DNA of 64,000 bases from Verrucomicrobiaceae bacterium (GTDB taxonomy: Bacteria > Verrucomicrobiota > Verrucomicrobiia > Verrucomicrobiales > Verrucomicrobiaceae), in contig JAIBCL010000007.1 in NCBI GenBank assembly GCA_019694165.1, forward strand, positions 1-64,000. Reading direction: 5' to 3'. The notes beneath the pieces were generated by a model, which had not been told where the DNA came from, searched no databases, and was given only the letters and a program-made list of their open reading frames with translations. Below are positions 30,181 to 56,896 of the stretch, piece by piece; the first letter of the stretch is position 1, and each line of letters starts with the position of its first letter. A program made the translations under genes and the position numbers.

Positions 30181-33093
30181 CTACCTCGGCGACCGCTGTT
30201 CCATCAGGTGCTCTTTTGAAGCGACGGATCCTTTGCTCCAATCCTTGATCACATCGCCAAACATGTCGGCACGTCCGCCCATGAGCGGCCGCCCCGATTT
30301 GAATGCCTCACCCATCTCACGAAGACGGAAAGTTACTTCCTCCCACCCACAATCCTTGTCATCAGGCGGAGGGAATGCTTCGTAAAGCAATGCGCTGCCA
30401 TGGGCACCGGCGGTGCCTGTTTTTTTCTCGCGAATCGCGTCGAGCCACGGTTTGAGAAACGCGGCGGACTGTTCCTCGACCATCGCCGCAAAGCGTTCCA
30501 GTTCACGGGCCTTTTGGTCTTCTGGTTTGAGGCGCTGATCCGTCTGCTTCCACGGCTCGGCGTATGGCGTGCGCTCTACGATCTCGAGTTCAAGCTCCCA
30601 GCCGGAAAAATCCACCCGCTGAAGGTTGTACGTCATGTCAGCCCAGTCGAAGAGCACGTTCTGCCGACGGTCCGGGCTTCTCGTCGTCCATGGCGCGTAG
30701 TGGAGCCGGATTTCCAGTTTGTTCTTCTCTGACCAGACATGGACGCGCGGAGAATTCGCGGTGCCAGTCGAGCCTGTAGGAACCGGCTGCATCGAAAAAT
30801 AGAACTGCTCGACCGGCCCGAACTGTTCTTCGTTTGGAGATCCTCCCCCTTCGACGATCCGGCTCAGAACTTCGGCGGGAGATCGCGTGAAGCCCAGTTG
30901 CGACCGTCCCCAGTTCTGAACGGTGTCACACAAGATCAGCAGAGCAGCCACGGGATCACGAAGCGCATCGACCTTCGGATGGCGCGTGTTGTGAAAGGCG
31001 ATCGCCCGCACCGCCGGCCGGTAATCGATTTGGTCCTTGGTTCCGATTTTGGCCAGACTGTGGTCGAGATGCCCGGCCGTTATCAGTCCATGATCACCCT
31101 TGGCAATTCCCGTGTCATCTTTAAGTCCCTCAATGTCCGGCACCACCCCGCAGAGTTGCTGGCTCAATTCCTTCACGCTGGCATTCACAGCCTTTGTGAA
31201 ATGGCCGATGGCATCGTGATTCTTAAAGTAGTCCAGGAGCCTCAAGGTCCCGCCGAGGATGTCGATGCCATAGGCCGTGTCGTGGGTCAGCGCCGCGAGC
31301 CACCAGTTTGCCAGAAACTTGCGGGCGTCCTCGGGCACGTGCCACCGGGCGGCCTCCTCAACCCGATTCGATGCAGCAGCCGAAGCCTCTGCCTTGGCGG
31401 CGGTACATTTGGCAACAAGCACATCCGCCAATGTCGCTGGAGTAGCTGCGTCGGGATGGCTCAAGAGCATCCAATGACCGATCAGGCAGACTTCGATGGT
31501 GTGAAAAAAGTGGTCGCGGTATCGCTGCTTAAGCGTGTGCAGCGCCGTCTCGCCACGGAGCGTCTGCCGCAGATGCACCCCCAGATCAAGACGGTCGGGC
31601 ACGCCGAGGATTTGGTGGGCGTAACCCGCCAGCGCCTGAATCAGCGTTTCAATCCGCTCTGCCGTCCACGGCTGGTCCGCCAGCAACACCGTCGCCAGCC
31701 GTCCCAGCGCCGCCGGATACTCGAGCAATTGCCTCTGCAGCGGATGCTGTTCCCAATCAGCGCGTAGCCGCTTCAACGATTCATCGATCGCCCGCGCCAG
31801 CCAGAATCTCAGCAGCTTTCGCTCGTAGCGGCGGCGTTCGTGTTCTTCATCCGAGGGATTTGGGGCGTAGGCGCCCGCAGTTGTGTTGTTGTGCTTTGCG
31901 GCTTGGTGGCTGAAGTCTAGAGGACGTACCGAGATCCCATCGAGGCAGGAGACGGCTAGATCCAGTCCCTCCAGTGCCTTGTTTCGAAGCTCTTGACCCT
32001 CCGCCGAGTCAGCGATCGCGAAATGCGAGAAAAATGGGGAGATCCAAAGGTGGAGTGCGCTCAACGCACGAATTGTTTTGTTGTCGCCTTCCAACTGAGG
32101 ACAACCACCTATTCCGGGACAGTTTATGCACCCTGGTTCCTGACAACTGGGCCTGACGCTGCATATCGAATCTGCAATGTCCTGCAACCCGTTCGCAGCC
32201 TTTACACAGTCCAATTTGCCGTCATCGAGAGGAAAACTTCGGCCTGGCACGAAGTCGTCGAGGAATCCGCTGAATTCCAAAGGAGTGACAGGCCAAACAA
32301 CCGTATGACGGTATATAGCTGGCATCGATCCCTGAGTTGCTGGCTGCCTCTTCAGCCATCGTCTGGCGTGTAGTACGGCGGCCTTGCTGCTAAACCAGAG
32401 TCCAAGAACATCGCTCAGTTCATCACTGATCTCGGACACTGTTTCACCCTGGGGATCACTAAATTCATTATCGTGAAACGGATCGATGGCGTACACCCAG
32501 GCGCTCATGCCCCGGGCAATCCGCCAGCCGCTCGAGGGCCAAACCCTTTGTAAAATCAACGGCACTCCATTTCCGTCGGACCGGAGTTCCTTGTTCCCCG
32601 AGGGCCGTGATGCCTTTGGGAACAAGGCTTGCACGCTTTTGCGACTGTACTGCAACGACGAAAGCTTTCGTCTACGAAACGACTCCAGTTTCGTGCTTGA
32701 TTGGCGATCAAGCTTGATGAACAAGCCCCCCCCCCATCTCTGGCACCAGACACCCGTGTCCGATCGTCCGGTTCTGGGCATGCTGCTCACATTCGCGGGC
32801 GATTCAGAATTCGACACTGCCGTCGCCATGTTCGTCATCAGCTTGTCGATCTTCTGCGTTAGCTCAGAGAGTTGTTCTGCCTCCAACGTGCCCCCCACAT
32901 GGTATCTTGGTTTGGCTATCTGCCCGGGAAGTTTCAGGAGCAAGCCGACAGCCCTCGCATTCATCGTTGAGTTGAGAGCACTCAAGAAGCCAAACGCGCA
33001 ACGATAGACCCCCTTCTCCACATCCCGTTCGAGAGATTGAAGTTTCGCACGAATAGCGCCTTTAAACTCTTGCTTATGATCAGCCATCGCCAT
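30181..33093 (-). CDS. Large HD-domain protein with Cys cluster, third gene of kinase-receiver-HD operon
   Basis: This 970-residue protein is not a named family to me. The second half shows an HD-phosphohydrolase pattern: H531 in DHFFHTIEVCLIGHW, H604-D605 in LAALTHDTAYGI, H668 or H675 in KGDHGLITAGHL, H701 in AIAFHNTRH and D723 in LLILCDTVQNWG. The middle holds a possible zinc site C317-x4-C-x2-C-x5-C331. The N-terminal 300 residues have no recognised domain. The start at 33093 follows the receiver stop by three bases. A tract of ten G occurs near residues 120-123. No signal peptide or membrane helix is obvious, so it is probably cytoplasmic. A phosphohydrolase role is inferred from the HD residues only. 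Confidence 0.78.
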   Translation of the reverse strand: MAMADHKQEFKGAIRAKLQSLERDVEKGVYRCAFGFLSALNSTMNARAVGLLLKLPGQIAKPRYHVGGTLEAEQLSELTQKIDKLMTNMATAVSNSESPANVSSMPRTGRSDTGVWCQRWGGGLFIKLDRQSSTKLESFRRRKLSSLQYSRKSVQALFPKASRPSGNKELRSDGNGVPLILQRVWPSSGWRIARGMSAWVYAIDPFHDNEFSDPQGETVSEISDELSDVLGLWFSSKAAVLHARRWLKRQPATQGSMPAIYRHTVVWPVTPLEFSGFLDDFVPGRSFPLDDGKLDCVKAANGLQDIADSICSVRPSCQEPGCINCPGIGGCPQLEGDNKTIRALSALHLWISPFFSHFAIADSAEGQELRNKALEGLDLAVSCLDGISVRPLDFSHQAAKHNNTTAGAYAPNPSDEEHERRRYERKLLRFWLARAIDESLKRLRADWEQHPLQRQLLEYPAALGRLATVLLADQPWTAERIETLIQALAGYAHQILGVPDRLDLGVHLRQTLRGETALHTLKQRYRDHFFHTIEVCLIGHWMLLSHPDAATPATLADVLVAKCTAAKAEASAAASNRVEEAARWHVPEDARKFLANWWLAALTHDTAYGIDILGGTLRLLDYFKNHDAIGHFTKAVNASVKELSQQLCGVVPDIEGLKDDTGIAKGDHGLITAGHLDHSLAKIGTKDQIDYRPAVRAIAFHNTRHPKVDALRDPVAALLILCDTVQNWGRSQLGFTRSPAEVLSRIVEGGGSPNEEQFGPVEQFYFSMQPVPTGSTGTANSPRVHVWSEKNKLEIRLHYAPWTTRSPDRRQNVLFDWADMTYNLQRVDFSGWELELEIVERTPYAEPWKQTDQRLKPEDQKARELERFAAMVEEQSAAFLKPWLDAIREKKTGTAGAHGSALLYEAFPPPDDKDCGWEEVTFRLREMGEAFKSGRPLMGGRADMFGDVIKDWSKGSVASKEHLMEQRSPR
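32726..32735 (-). repeat. Ten-base poly-C (poly-G in the gene) homopolymer inside the HD gene
   Basis: Ten consecutive C on the plus strand encode the glycine run in W-GGG-LF near residues 120-123 of the HD protein. Homopolymers of this length slip readily in replication and would shift the frame near the start of the protein. Confidence 0.8.
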
Positions 33094-33096
33094 GAC

Positions 33097-33783
33097 TCAG
33101 AGTTGCTTACTATCACCTGGTTCACCGAGTTTGGATTCGCCAAGGATTCGGCCGATTTTCTCGACGTCGTCCGGCTTTTGGAACCAACCGAGATAGACCC
33201 CATGCTGAGTAATGCCGCAATCGACCATTGCGTTCTCTCCTTCCACACGGTCCGTTGCCGAGAGAATAGCATAACGCCAGTGATTGAGCCAACCCGCCTT
33301 CGCGGCCTCCTCCAAAAACAACAGTCCTCCATCGTGAACGATCAAGCTCCGCCAGGTACTGTTTAACCCGGCAAAGTCCTCCTTCAATCTTTGGATGTCT
33401 TCCTCGGCAGGTGTCGTCTCCTCGTGGACTTCTCGAATCTTCCGCGAGAGGCTCTCGCGCTCGTTTTCCAGTTTTCGCAGCACACCCAAATCGTCCTCGT
33501 AAGCCGGAAGCATGTCATCGATGAGTGCCAGGCGAATCGCCTGGTGTTTGGCGGTCGCGAACCCGATTGCTTTTTCAATCGTTTCTGCGACAAGCGGGTC
33601 CCATTTCGCATCTTTAGCCATCTTCGCCAGTTGCGAGCTTCTGACCGGGTCGTCTTCGACAATCAAGACCAGCGGACACTCTTGTCCGGTTGTTCCTGAT
33701 TCGATGTCTGCTAGGTGGGCGTCGCCATGAGCAGCGCCAGAAGGGTTTGGTGTCCGATCTTTCGTGGTGGTGCCGGTGATCAT
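33097..33783 (-). CDS. Stand-alone receiver domain with coiled-coil insertion
   Basis: The 228-residue protein is a CheY-like receiver with complete active-site residues: E43-D44-D45 (LIVEDDP), phosphoacceptor D89 (LIDDMLP), S175 (ILSAT) and K203-P204. Between the third and fourth strands a helical, highly charged stretch of about 60 residues (VLRKLENERESLSRKI onward) forms a probable coiled coil, not present in ordinary receivers. There is no DNA-binding output domain. Its start overlaps the kinase stop by four bases (ATGA), and its stop is three bases before the HD start. It is the obvious phosphoryl carrier between the kinase and HD protein. Confidence 0.88.
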   Translation of the reverse strand: MITGTTTKDRTPNPSGAAHGDAHLADIESGTTGQECPLVLIVEDDPVRSSQLAKMAKDAKWDPLVAETIEKAIGFATAKHQAIRLALIDDMLPAYEDDLGVLRKLENERESLSRKIREVHEETTPAEEDIQRLKEDFAGLNSTWRSLIVHDGGLLFLEEAAKAGWLNHWRYAILSATDRVEGENAMVDCGITQHGVYLGWFQKPDDVEKIGRILGESKLGEPGDSKQL

Positions 33784-35771
33784 TGGTTGGAAAGCAAAAG
33801 AGGGAGCAGCACCGTTACAGTAGTCTCGAAAATCTCAACTGGCGGCTTGTCATGGGTAAACCCTAGCGGCCCCTTACTGTCAATTGTTAGAGTGCCACCA
33901 CATCCCTTGATCAGCGAATCAGATTGGGCAAGACCAAGCCCCTGCCCGGGCCGCTTGCGCTTCCGGTCATTCTTGAGGACTTCAATGGCGCGTTTTGCGT
34001 ATTTGAACAAGGCCGGGCGCTCGGCGGATTTGAAGCCGACACCTTCATTTCTAATGCTCACTTCAAGATAAACTTGGGATGAGACCCTGAGTCTGATGTT
34101 GACGGCCTTGTTTAAAAACGAGTACTTCACCGCATTGTCCAACAGATTGGTAAAGGCCTTTCGGAGGTGTGAGATAACCGAGAACACCTCGCAGGAGCAC
34201 CCGTCTGGACGAGGGGCTAATTTCAAATCAATCATCTTCTCCCGTGCACGGGCTTCAAAGTGTTTCAACATGGTTTCGGTGAGTTGATACACATCAACCG
34301 GCTCGGGTTCCATTTTCGTCGTCGCCTGCAACATCAACGCATCGGACTGAGCGGTTTGCAGATAGGAGCGCACCTGATCGCAGAGCGCGCGCCGTTCTTT
34401 TGAAATGTCGGCATTTGCGTCGCCAAGGCGGGCGATGTCGTGCAAAGTGGAGAACGCATTTTGAAGCGGGGTCTTGAGGTGGTGGCCGGTGAACGAAACC
34501 TGCTTGCGAAACTCCTCCTGCTGCGCACGCTGCTGTTCCATCAACGTGCCTCGATGGGCGTACGCACCGATCGCCGAGGCACACCCTACGACCAACTCCG
34601 TCTGCGCCTGCAAGGCATCATTGTGCAAGCCTGTTGGCGGGCCGCCGACAATGACGAGAACGACCGACAGGAGATTTTTCCCCCCGCTCGACTCATCGAG
34701 CCGGTAAGTCCAAAGATTTTTTGCAGGAAGCCAGGACATTGCCTGCCGCCAAGCGATGGCTTTGGCTGAACTTACGGAGTACTCGGTCCACCGATTCGAG
34801 GGCACATCCAGCGACACATGGATGCTGACCTTGTTGCGGGTCGCGCGAAAAGCTGGCGGGGCGTCAAGAGGCGCGCCACATGTGCCGGACGCTGCCAGAA
34901 CCTCGTAGTCTTCGCCGCGGCGGACCATGAAGAATGAGGGCCGCCCCCCCAAAACCAACTCCAGATCGGTCAGCACCTTGTTGGCCGGCTTCACCCATCC
35001 GTCTGGGTTGGAGGAAAACACGTCTGCCAAGGCATCATTAACTGCAACGATGGCCGCCTGAATCTCCCGATTGAGTTTTGCTTGGTAAAGTTCGTCTATC
35101 GTTTCTTGCACAGCAGCGGTGAATTCCGTGAACGCTTTCTTAAAGTCAGCGATGTTGTTCGCCGGTTTGGCTGCCTTCCTGAGTTCAGACATCAATTCGT
35201 TCACCTTCAGGTCGAGCCCTTCACCGTAGTCGGGCGCCGGCTCAAGCCTGTCTCCGCTGTCTTCCCTGCCAGCAAGCAGGTGGCGCAATCGGGACTCGGT
35301 TTGTGCGAGCTGGCGTTCGTTTTCCTGCTCACTGAGTTGCCCTGCAAACAGGACACCGGCGGTTTTCCCGCAGAGCGTGAAACCTCGGCGCATATCAAGC
35401 AGCCCCATGTGGCACTTGTAAGGTTTGACGGAGTTCTGCCCAGTATCGTAAACCTCTTTCGCCCGGCGATCATCGCATGCGACGCAAAGTGCGTCGCAGG
35501 GCCGCTTGCCATCCACCGTGATGTCACGAAATGCCCGGCAAAACGGGTTCCAATAGTCACGCAAATCCTTGCCGCCTCCGTATTCTGCATCCAAATGATG
35601 AAACTTGTTCCCATCCGGTGGTGGCTTGGTCTTGTGGTTATAGAGGAGTGTCATTCCCACCCGGTCCTGATGGTAGAAGCCGCGCAGCAAGACCTGGAGG
35701 ACTTTTTTGGGTATCACGTCCAGCAGTGAGTCGGGATCAAGGGCTTTGAGAAAGGATGAAAACAGGTTCAT
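33780..35771 (-). CDS. PocR-domain sensor histidine kinase
   Basis: The 663-residue kinase lacks clear membrane helices and is probably cytoplasmic. Residues about 10 to 150 form a PocR-like sensory domain with cysteines C92, C96, C99 and C120-H121 (PYKCHMGLLD). A coiled-coil region follows, then a GAF-like segment (IQAAIVAVNDALADVF onward), a HisKA helix pair and a HATPase domain. The HATPase domain has N546 in FTNLLDNAVKYS and a GQGLGLAQ loop. The phosphoacceptor motif reads G-H430-H431-L-K-T-P, so the acidic residue after the His is replaced by His. Its stop overlaps the receiver start. The ligand is unknown. Confidence 0.88.
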   Translation of the reverse strand: MNLFSSFLKALDPDSLLDVIPKKVLQVLLRGFYHQDRVGMTLLYNHKTKPPPDGNKFHHLDAEYGGGKDLRDYWNPFCRAFRDITVDGKRPCDALCVACDDRRAKEVYDTGQNSVKPYKCHMGLLDMRRGFTLCGKTAGVLFAGQLSEQENERQLAQTESRLRHLLAGREDSGDRLEPAPDYGEGLDLKVNELMSELRKAAKPANNIADFKKAFTEFTAAVQETIDELYQAKLNREIQAAIVAVNDALADVFSSNPDGWVKPANKVLTDLELVLGGRPSFFMVRRGEDYEVLAASGTCGAPLDAPPAFRATRNKVSIHVSLDVPSNRWTEYSVSSAKAIAWRQAMSWLPAKNLWTYRLDESSGGKNLLSVVLVIVGGPPTGLHNDALQAQTELVVGCASAIGAYAHRGTLMEQQRAQQEEFRKQVSFTGHHLKTPLQNAFSTLHDIARLGDANADISKERRALCDQVRSYLQTAQSDALMLQATTKMEPEPVDVYQLTETMLKHFEARAREKMIDLKLAPRPDGCSCEVFSVISHLRKAFTNLLDNAVKYSFLNKAVNIRLRVSSQVYLEVSIRNEGVGFKSAERPALFKYAKRAIEVLKNDRKRKRPGQGLGLAQSDSLIKGCGGTLTIDSKGPLGFTHDKPPVEIFETTVTVLLPLLLSNQ

Positions 35772-53572: not shown

Positions 53573-56500
53573 TCAGAGCGTCACCACCTCGCAGCGGTGG
53601 GTGAAAAGCAGGCGGCAACTGATGGCACCGGCGGGGAGGCCGGTCATGCGCGCGAGCACTTCGCGATACGTCTCGAGCTGCGGGCGGTAGCCGGCGATGC
53701 GCTCGGCAAAGGCGTCGTCGGTCTCAGGCTTGTCGGTCTTGAAGTCGAGGATCGTGGCGCGGTCCCGCTCGATCATCACACGGTCGAAGGTGCCGGAGAG
53801 CCATTCGCCGGCGAGCAGGATTTCAAAACGCTGCTCGCGCCAGCAGCGTGCGTCGGGCGCGGGCCGCGAGAGCAACCGCCGCACGGCAGGTGCGGCGAGG
53901 CAGCGGCGCACTTCATCCAGGGCGCGCTGGCGCAGCGCTTCATCAGCGCACGGCACGGCGGCCCAGCGCCGGTGGAGCCCGGCATCGTCCATTTCATCGA
54001 GCCACTCGATCTGCTCGAAGAACGCATGCACCAGCGTGCCGTAGGACCGCGCGAAGCGTCCGCCGCGGGAGAAAAGTTGCCGCGCGGTAACCACGGCGGT
54101 CTCGGAGCCGCTCGGCGTGCGGCGCACGGGCCGCTCGCGACCAGTGAAGGTGGCGCGACGGACTGGCGCGGGCTCCGCGGCGACGGGCGGCGCCTGCTGC
54201 TGCGGCGCCGCGGCTTCAAACCAGCGCCGGCTCGTCGAAGGTGTGCTGGTTTCAAACACGACGTTGGCTTTGACCCCGCCGAACGTGGCCGCCCGCGCGC
54301 TTGCACCGCCGAGCGTGAGATCGAGGAGCTGGATGAAATTCTTCGACGTGGACGATGCCGGCCGCGGCGCGGCGATCAGGTAATTCGCATGCTTCGCGCG
54401 CGTGAGGGCGACGTAGAACTTGCACAGTTCCTCGTAGGCGGCCTCGGCCTCGCGCTCCTCGCGATACGTGGCGAGCACAGGATCGGCCCGCACGATGTCG
54501 CCGGGCGGCAGATCGAAGACCCACTCGACGTGGCGGCGCTTGTCCCGCTTCACGCCGATGCCGCGCCGCACGGTGGTGAGCGAGCTGCCTTCGAGATCAG
54601 GCAGGATCACGCAGTCGAAGGTGAGGCCCTTCGACTTGTGGATCGTCATCACCTGCACGGCGCTGCGCGTGTCAGGCTCGCGCACGGTGTAGCGGCCGGC
54701 ATACGCGAGGAATTCATCGATGTCGCGGCTGCCACCGTCATCGAACAGGCGCGCGGCCAGCGCAAATGCCTCCGCGCGCTGCTGGCTGAAGGCATCGAGC
54801 GTCACGTCCGCCTGCGCCAGCGCGTGCAGCCAGCGGCGCAGCGCGTGCTCGAAGCCGTGGTCGAACACCTGGCGCAGCACCTCGCTGGCGAGCCGGCCAG
54901 CGTTCATCTCCGCGGCATCGAGCACGGCGCGGAAAGGCGTCATGCGCAGGTGCTCCCAGGCGAGCGTGTCGCCGGGATGCGCGGCGCATTGGAAAATGCT
55001 GAGCAGGGCGAGCGTGACGGGATTGTCCGTGGCCACGGCTGTCTCCGACTCACACATCACGGGAATGCGCGAGGGCGAGTGCGCGCGGAGGAAATCGACG
55101 ATGGCACGGCCGGTGCGGTTTTCCTGCACAAGGATGGCGCAGGTGAGGCCGCGCAGCACGGGCTGGATTTCCTCCAGCACGCCGGCCACGAGTGCGAAGC
55201 GGTCCTCCTCCCCGACCTTTCCGCCCGAGCCGGCCTCGGGCTGCATGAGCACGGCATGGCCCGGCAGCGCGTCATGCCGCGGCGCGACCTTGTGATCCTG
55301 CCACTCCCAGCGCTCGCGCGTGTCCTCGGGCAGCTCCATCGCGGTGAGGGCGGAGTCATCTCCAAAGACACGGTTCACCATGTCGATCACGTCATGGCCG
55401 GAGCGCCACGAGACATTCAGCGGGCGCACCTTGATGCGCGGCTCCGCACCGGCGTTGTAGCGTGAGAGGACGTCGTGAAACAGCCGCGTGTCGCCGCCGC
55501 GCCAGGCGTAGATGGCCTGTTTCACATCGCCCACCTGGAAGAGCGTGCGCTCGTCCCCGGTGTCCTGCACGGCCTCGTCGATGAGGTTCTCGATCACCGA
55601 CCACTGCACGTAGTTCGTGTCCTGAAATTCGTCGAGCAGCCAGTGGTCGTAGCGCGCATCGAGCCGGTAGTCGATGCGCAGCCGCGCCTCCTCTCCGGGC
55701 GTCTGCGCGAGCATCGGGCGCGGCATGTCAGCGGCGAATTCATGCCCGGCAAGGATCAGCTCCATGTCCTGAAACGTCAGCCGCCCGCGCCGCCGCACCT
55801 GCTCCGACCAGCGCTGCTCGAAGAGGCTCAGCACCCGCCACACGCCCTGCGTGCGCTCCAGCCGCACGGCCAGCTCCGCGCCCACGAGATGCGTGACGAT
55901 GCCGCCGAGCACTTCGCACGCCTCCGCGCCGAGCTGCTGCTTGCGGCGGTTCACCGTGATCTCGCACTGCTTCGCCTCGATCCGCGGCCATGCTTCGAGC
56001 AGCCGCGGCAGAAAGTACCGCATCCGCGGCGGCAGCGCGCCGCCCGGGGTATGCGGCAGCGCCTCGTCACGGAACTGCTCCCAGAACCCGCGCTGCGCAT
56101 CGTCGATGCCGTCGTTTCCAAACACCTCGAGCAGCCGCGTGAATCCGGCGGAGAGATCGACGCGCGCGCCGAGCCAGCGGCAGCCGCGCGGCCAGATCAT
56201 GCGCGGATTTCCCCACAGCTCCTCGCGGGCGGCATGCAGCAGGATTTCGTGCTGGTTCTCCACGAACTGGTCGAGCACCGCGCGGATGCCCGACTCCTCG
56301 CGCCCGAACGTCGCGCGGCGGAATGCCTCCAGAAAGTCCCGTTGCGCCGCAGCCCCGGCATCACGCGCGCGCAGGCCGTGAAGCGTGCGCTGGAAGACGA
56401 GGCGGTAGACCCGCTCGCGCTCGACCGCGCCGAGGTGGTCGCTCAGGATTTCAAAATCACCCGCCAGACCGAACTCCGCCGGAAAGCTGCGCAACACGGC

Positions 56501-56896
56501 TGCGAAGAACGAATCCAGCGTGCCGAGAAACAGCCGCGGCATGCGCGCGATGAAGATGCGCAGCAACTGCCGGTAGTCCGCCTGCGACAGCTCGCGCAGC
56601 ACGGGCCGCAGCGGATCGAACACCGCCTCCGGATCGGCGCGCTCGTCGCCCGCCAGCAGCCGCGCGTAATCCGCGTCCGACGCCGCGCGCGCCAGCTTCG
56701 TGAGGATGGAGTCGAAGAACTCTCCCGCCGCCTTGCGCGTGAATGTGACCGCCACGATGCGCTCCGGCGTCACCTCCCGCCCCGCCAGCAACTGCCGCCC
56801 CATCAGCGCGATGAAGCGGTTCGTCAGTTGCCATGTCTTCCCCGAGCCAGCGGAGGCAAGGATCATTTCGTTGGGAATCGAGGCAGCCATGACCAT
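53573..56896 (-). CDS. addA: AddA-type UvrD-like helicase/exonuclease subunit
   Basis: This 1107-residue protein has helicase motif I ASAGSGKTWQLTNRFIALM, DEFQDTNYVQWSVIENLI (motif II region), VMTIHKSKGLTFDCVIL and further UvrD motifs. A C-terminal PD-(D/E)XK nuclease domain has LDFKTDKPETDDAFAERI and YRPQLETYREVLARM. This is the layout of AddA/RecB-like nucleases that process double-strand breaks for recombination. It follows the AddB gene by 27 bases. An ATG two codons inside (56890) is an equally likely start. The C-terminus is short but includes the nuclease catalytic residues. Confidence 0.9.
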   Translation of the reverse strand: MVMAASIPNEMILASAGSGKTWQLTNRFIALMGRQLLAGREVTPERIVAVTFTRKAAGEFFDSILTKLARAASDADYARLLAGDERADPEAVFDPLRPVLRELSQADYRQLLRIFIARMPRLFLGTLDSFFAAVLRSFPAEFGLAGDFEILSDHLGAVERERVYRLVFQRTLHGLRARDAGAAAQRDFLEAFRRATFGREESGIRAVLDQFVENQHEILLHAAREELWGNPRMIWPRGCRWLGARVDLSAGFTRLLEVFGNDGIDDAQRGFWEQFRDEALPHTPGGALPPRMRYFLPRLLEAWPRIEAKQCEITVNRRKQQLGAEACEVLGGIVTHLVGAELAVRLERTQGVWRVLSLFEQRWSEQVRRRGRLTFQDMELILAGHEFAADMPRPMLAQTPGEEARLRIDYRLDARYDHWLLDEFQDTNYVQWSVIENLIDEAVQDTGDERTLFQVGDVKQAIYAWRGGDTRLFHDVLSRYNAGAEPRIKVRPLNVSWRSGHDVIDMVNRVFGDDSALTAMELPEDTRERWEWQDHKVAPRHDALPGHAVLMQPEAGSGGKVGEEDRFALVAGVLEEIQPVLRGLTCAILVQENRTGRAIVDFLRAHSPSRIPVMCESETAVATDNPVTLALLSIFQCAAHPGDTLAWEHLRMTPFRAVLDAAEMNAGRLASEVLRQVFDHGFEHALRRWLHALAQADVTLDAFSQQRAEAFALAARLFDDGGSRDIDEFLAYAGRYTVREPDTRSAVQVMTIHKSKGLTFDCVILPDLEGSSLTTVRRGIGVKRDKRRHVEWVFDLPPGDIVRADPVLATYREEREAEAAYEELCKFYVALTRAKHANYLIAAPRPASSTSKNFIQLLDLTLGGASARAATFGGVKANVVFETSTPSTSRRWFEAAAPQQQAPPVAAEPAPVRRATFTGRERPVRRTPSGSETAVVTARQLFSRGGRFARSYGTLVHAFFEQIEWLDEMDDAGLHRRWAAVPCADEALRQRALDEVRRCLAAPAVRRLLSRPAPDARCWREQRFEILLAGEWLSGTFDRVMIERDRATILDFKTDKPETDDAFAERIAGYRPQLETYREVLARMTGLPAGAISCRLLFTHRCEVVTL

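Follow-up and report, generated by a model that had tools for sequence, protein, structure and literature searches.

A kinase–receiver–HD protein trio from a Verrucomicrobiaceae bacterium that looks like an undescribed two-component signalling cassette

Detocs is composed of the DtcA kinase, the DtcB phosphate buffer and the DtcC response regulator (PMC11728103). A similar set of three genes, coding for a histidine kinase, a stand-alone receiver-type protein and an effector, with an output predicted to be enzymatic and not transcriptional, was found in the 64,000-nucleotide stretch of DNA analysed here and hereafter called the window (assembly GCA_019694165.1, contig JAIBCL010000007.1, positions 1 to 64,000). 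The window shares with Detocs a histidine kinase gene located in the operon and a separate small receiver protein. The differences, drawn from the description of Detocs, concern the effector, which has neither a receiver of its own nor a phosphorylase: Pfam, NCBIfam and PADLOC detected in the 970-aa protein neither a nucleoside phosphorylase nor any other effector domain described for Detocs, and Pfam detected no receiver domain, such a domain being seen only in two distant fused relatives (L031 and L041). Also, the window receiver bears a coiled-coil-like insert and is probably a link to the effector, not a buffer. Since two defining features of Detocs were looked for and neither was present, the window system was not placed in Detocs, as an earlier note on this DNA had anticipated.

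Another point of comparison is provided by the receiver–HD-GYP regulators of the RpfG type, in which a receiver controls an HD-fold phosphodiesterase, a layout also displayed by L031 and L041. The window family differs from these regulators by its motifs (YRDHxxH and CDxxQxWGR), by the lack of any HD-GYP match in Pfam or NCBIfam, and by the fact that receiver and HD protein are encoded by separate genes in the triads. With the HD superfamily as a whole (PF01966; YqeK, Cas3 HD, class I PDE and small alarmone hydrolase), it shares the H-HD-H-H-D order and a helical core, the H...HD...D ligands being conserved as H528/H531, H604-D605, H668, H701 and D723, whereas the CDxxQxWGR motif and a C-terminal helix/strand region are its own. 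HD-fold enzymes usually act on a nucleotide or a nucleic acid. Concerning predicted systems, a figure legend of the DefensePredictor study (PMC13092281) lists one with HATPase and receiver domains, and that text permits no match to the triad. A literature search covering papers outside subscription returned no description of the HD family or of the triad. As judged from sequence, the triad is a previously unnamed conserved two-component module with a putative enzymatic output.

The three genes lie on the minus strand, in the order kinase (35771–33780, 663 aa), receiver (33783–33097, 228 aa) and HD protein (33093–30181, 970 aa). The open reading frames and both junctions bear out the tight coupling previously proposed: kinase and receiver genes overlap by 4 bases (ATGA) at CAATGATC, and 3 bases separate the receiver from the HD gene at TGAGTCATGG. 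The lowest 2-kb GC of the window (0.543) is found at 32–34 kb, vs. about 0.60–0.66 in the flanks, and the GC3 values of the three genes (0.652, 0.605 and 0.649) are below the mean of 0.76 obtained for the other long ORFs of the window, a comparison set that includes spurious antisense frames. Lateral transfer, which the earlier note had read from the lower GC, fits this composition (GC minimum and low GC3 alike) together with the patchy distribution described below. The tested neighbours of the triad in the window are metabolic and regulatory genes, and PADLOC gave no match among them other than an AddA-like helicase located 18 kb away. The latter (53576–56896) is a UvrD helicase–PD-(D/E)XK nuclease protein, and its GajB matches in PADLOC probably reflect generic helicase similarity.

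The sensor histidine kinase (33780..35771, minus strand) is predicted to be cytosolic and comprises a PocR ligand-sensing domain (aa 74-157; 35301..35552, minus strand; Pfam PF10114, E=1.2e-7), a GAF-like stretch recognised by eye, a DHp box (GHHLKTPLQ) and a HATPase_c catalytic domain (aa 534-658; 33798..34172, minus strand; Pfam PF02518, E=9.4e-15), in which the N, G1 and G2 boxes were found. The PocR domain contains two Cys-bearing motifs, CDALCVACD and YKCHMGLLD. The predicted phospho-accepting residue, His430 (34482..34484, minus strand), was deduced from the canonical HxxxTP box. Together with the receiver, the kinase provides the hallmarks of a two-component system in one operon, namely a phospho-His kinase and a phospho-Asp receiver, both judged by sequence. 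No transmembrane-like stretch was detected in the kinase, the receiver or the HD protein, and the signal sensed by the cassette is therefore probably internal.

As for the receiver (33097..33783, minus strand), its match to Pfam Response_reg is below threshold (0.014), and it retains the acidic pair (42-VEDD-45), D89, S175 and K203. Asp89 (33517..33519, minus strand) is the predicted phospho-accepting residue; D44, D89 and K203 are invariant across the six triad receivers, those of the relatives included, two of the receivers from other loci having no Pfam match at all. The β3–α3 loop holds about 55 extra residues, which lie after D89 and before the GG of alpha3 and make up a charged insert of coiled-coil-like character (aa ~96-151; 33331..33498, minus strand); of the five other triad receivers, four have shorter inserts in this loop. 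No output domain was found in the 228-aa protein, consistent with the previous description of a receiver devoid of DNA-binding output.

The third gene (30181..33093, minus strand) codes for the putative effector enzyme. The 970-aa protein is matched by no model of Pfam, NCBIfam or PADLOC, HD-GYP and the other curated HD models of Pfam and NCBIfam included, and by no solved structure when compared by sequence with the PDB. Single-sequence searches of 289 genomes of the phylum, 57 near relatives, plasmids, phages and IMG/VR recovered only the window's own genome, and no phage or plasmid record contained the HD protein at E<=1e-3. Relatives were sought with a DNA pattern encoding LxLCDxxQxWGR, itself a guess based on the window protein, a match being accepted only in a long frame and confirmed by the other HD motifs and by profile scores. 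The pattern gave 2 stretches in the viral collection and 44 in the genome collection, about 30 of which were true relatives according to in-frame motifs and profile score. One of them, L023, matches the window protein pairwise at 8e-13. In total, a family of about 35 sequences from bacteria and archaea was assembled de novo.

The motif set of the family is YRDHxxH…HD…HG…H…CDxxQxWGR, and in the window protein the HD core spans aa 524-730 (RYRDHFFH ... THD ... DHG ... AFHN ... CDTVQNWGR; 30904..31524, minus strand). In the 35-sequence alignment, Y525, R526, H528, H531, G539, H604, D605 and H668 are conserved in at least 90% of the sequences, and H701, D723 and R730 are invariant. These positions give the H–HD–H–H–D ligand order of bimetal HD enzymes, with His604-Asp605 (31279..31284, minus strand) as predicted metal ligands and Asp723 (30925..30927, minus strand) as the predicted last one. 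Asp723 lies inside the motif used for finding most sequences, and the conservation of CDxxQxWGR is for that reason partly built in; the other HD motifs were not enriched by the search route, and six members (L082, L085, L087 and L097–L099) were recovered by profile and are hence free of this bias. Curated models reach few members of the family: Pfam HD (PF01966) matches 2 of the 35 (best 5.3e-4), the window protein not among them, and misses the other 33 at E<=0.01, while Cas3 models match two (best 2.1e-6) and a NosR receiver/c-di-GMP phosphodiesterase model matches one (1.4e-5). Downstream of the core, a C-terminal helix/strand region (aa 731-970; 30184..30903, minus strand) is common to the closest relatives and is modelled with low confidence.

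AlphaFold gave a mean pLDDT of 52.8 for the full HD protein and 68.6 for the core alone, with values mostly between 80 and 95 around the motif-bearing helices, which attain 80–94 in the full-length model, and low confidence outside the core. Foldseek searches of the PDB with the full-length and core models returned no significant match; the first entry of the non-significant list for the core model was the HD hydrolase 3ccg (E=1.3), followed lower down by 2ogi (HD hydrolase), PDE10 and a small alarmone hydrolase, fold neighbours that agree weakly with the HD assignment. The label "HD protein", initially guessed from motifs, is thus backed by metal-ligand positions conserved throughout the family alignment, the window protein itself having no profile match or significant structural match, and an HD fold is suggested by the motifs.

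The kinase–receiver–HD order was found at six loci in five genomes and four phyla, including the window. Outside it, the full triad was present at five loci only: one in an Anaerolineaceae genome (L084), where the HD start overlaps the receiver stop; two separate ones in a single Desulfococcaceae genome (L082 and L083); one in a Thermoanaerobaculia genome (L081), with the order HD, GAF kinase, receiver, HD; and one in another Acidobacteria MAG, where the same arrangement is divided between two contigs (L042/L085). The HATPase domain was verified by Pfam in the kinases of L081–L084, and coding overlaps join neighbouring genes in the window, L082 and L084. Identities between the window proteins and these relatives amount to about 18–28% only, and the link between them is therefore old. 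Wherever the flanks of a close HD relative were readable, a kinase and receiver pair was present; L055 lies at a contig end. In the maximum-likelihood tree, the triad HDs fall on one side of a moderately supported branch (84/75), with L055 and L026 among them. Profile searches of 388 genomes from the window's phylum detected the HD family in 2, one of them weakly; in four other phylum samples, all containing their own seed genome or genomes, the counts were 3/297, 3/297, 1/301 and 1/266. The cassette is rare and scattered, with about one genome in 100–400 in a given phylum sample.

The recurrence of the trio in several phyla argues against a chance arrangement, and the possibility that the three genes are not conserved together was not borne out by this neighbourhood survey. 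Kinases and receivers are abundant, and a two-component pair unrelated to the adjoining HD gene is for this reason conceivable, but the conserved order, the overlapping genes and the receiver–HD fusions make it highly improbable, and chance adjacency was rejected on the basis of the order. The trio looks like a real, undescribed signalling cassette. Two variants nevertheless caution against one chemistry for all cassettes: the L082 kinase has Gln at the DHp His position and may not phosphorylate in the usual way, and in the second HD protein of the Acidobacteria cassettes (L081:14386-17892, L085:2589-6011) DRG replaces DHG, so that this protein, perhaps a partner of the first, may be inactive.

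Control of the HD protein by a receiver is supported by two distant relatives in which both are fused. In L031 (Bryobacterales), a REC–HD protein follows a GAF–GAF–HATPase–REC kinase, and in L041 (Cloacimonadota) another REC–HD protein is preceded by a kinase with a HATPase domain. The fused receivers possess the D, D, T and K positions, with a weak or absent Pfam score. Since the HDs of L031 and L041 fall apart from the triad HDs on the tree, receivers may have come to control the HD domain on more than one occasion. GAF–HD fusions among the relatives (L061 and others) and an HD protein adjoining GAF proteins (L029) also point to the HD domain as a signalling output. Taken together, the order conserved across phyla and the two fusions support the earlier view that the sensor, the phosphoryl carrier and the HD effector work together as a unit.

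From the observed gene anatomy, conserved residues, gene order and fusions, we infer phosphotransfer, receiver–HD binding, a direction of control and a substrate class along the following lines. The PocR/GAF-type kinase would bind an internal small-molecule or stress signal and autophosphorylate at His430, and the phosphoryl group would then pass to Asp89 of the stand-alone receiver. Once phosphorylated, the receiver would bind the HD protein, a contact that may be made by the coiled-coil insert of the receiver, and this binding would turn the metal-dependent phosphohydrolase/phosphodiesterase domain on or off, the putative substrate of the H-HD-H-H-D enzyme being a nucleotide or a nucleic acid. 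A two-component cassette of this kind, complete in itself and acting through an enzyme instead of through transcription, with the signal running from kinase to receiver to HD enzyme, is the probable reading of the locus. Most probably it provides an accessory response, of a stress or signalling type, that is spread by lateral transfer, antiviral defence being one candidate.

What the output serves is where the other readings diverge. PocR is a known metabolite-sensing domain, and HD-GYP, PgpH and alarmone hydrolases have related ligand patterns, so an ordinary metabolic or second-messenger circuit is a reasonable contender, if somewhat short of probable: the PocR/GAF region would bind a metabolite and the HD protein would degrade a hyperphosphorylated or cyclic nucleotide (c-di-GMP, c-di-AMP or an alarmone), as receiver-HD-GYP proteins do. 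The family member matching the NosR model and the GAF–HD fusions speak for such a circuit, whereas the window protein lacks an HD-GYP or other curated HD match, and the rarity and patchiness of the family would be unusual for a core second-messenger enzyme. These same traits, together with the foreign composition of the operon, would suit an antiviral (abortive) defence, triggered when the kinase detects infection, the receiver then freeing an HD enzyme that destroys nucleotides or nucleic acid, with a logic resembling that of Detocs (PMC11728103). In its favour are also the ParA/CopG-type, mobile-type genes adjoining the L084 triad, the defence-type genes around a truncated HD gene in L096, the NACHT/STAND neighbour of the L062 HD protein and the two matches to Cas3 models. 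However, the triad proteins have no meaningful match to PADLOC or Pfam defence models, no full triad was found in a recognisable defence island, phage and plasmid records yielded no HD protein at E<=1e-3, and the input domain is of metabolite type; with the metabolic or regulatory neighbours in the window, this makes defence a rather unlikely candidate. The earlier proposal of an undescribed "signalling or defence system" is supported for the signalling cassette, owing to the conserved order; for defence it is weakened by the lack of PADLOC matches and the nature of the neighbours, and the defence-like settings of some HD relatives leave it as a candidate on indirect grounds.

Returning to the two-component cassette with enzymatic output, a broader and rather doubtful extension would make it an immune or stress-response system that has crossed phyla by lateral transfer, its cytosolic kinase acting through an insert-bearing receiver on a new family of HD metal-enzymes. 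The same family would also act downstream of STAND NTPases, GAF sensors and radical-SAM operons and would constitute an effector class shared by many conflict systems. Pfam, NCBIfam, PHROGs and PADLOC do not define the HD family, which nevertheless turns up repeatedly as the output partner of different sensors; identifying the substrate of a single member would shed light on all the others. The triad would add, beside Detocs, a second and independent two-component design with a directly controlled enzyme, and the model makes simple, testable predictions at H430, D89 and H604/D605.

HD-family proteins were also observed in other surroundings. A second recurrent operon, found in Clostridia and Bacteroidota (L034:1243-4422, L032:1-2849, L064:2116-4597, L053:6216-7998 and L098:6075-9058), contains a radical SAM/SPASM protein, an HD protein and, in some cases, a UDG-superfamily protein. 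In L062:343-6587, a calcineurin-like phosphoesterase–NACHT/STAND–TPR protein, a small P-loop-like protein and an HD-family protein stand in a row. The Polyangiaceae locus L096:9158-15159, which resembles a defence island, carries genes for N6_Mtase, a truncated HD-family protein, a DNA methylase, GmrSD_N and HEPN_MAE_28990. HD-family proteins adjoin ParA-like ATPases in L048:2091-7569 and L087:153-3432, and a 1448-aa protein (L086:5656-9999) combines a B12-binding/radical-SAM-like N-terminus, recognised by eye, with a weak HD-family match (3.8e-8). Finally, the HD-family protein of L023:8018-9667 has a repeat-like N-terminus and is located on an IMG/VR contig that also carries a terminase-like gene.
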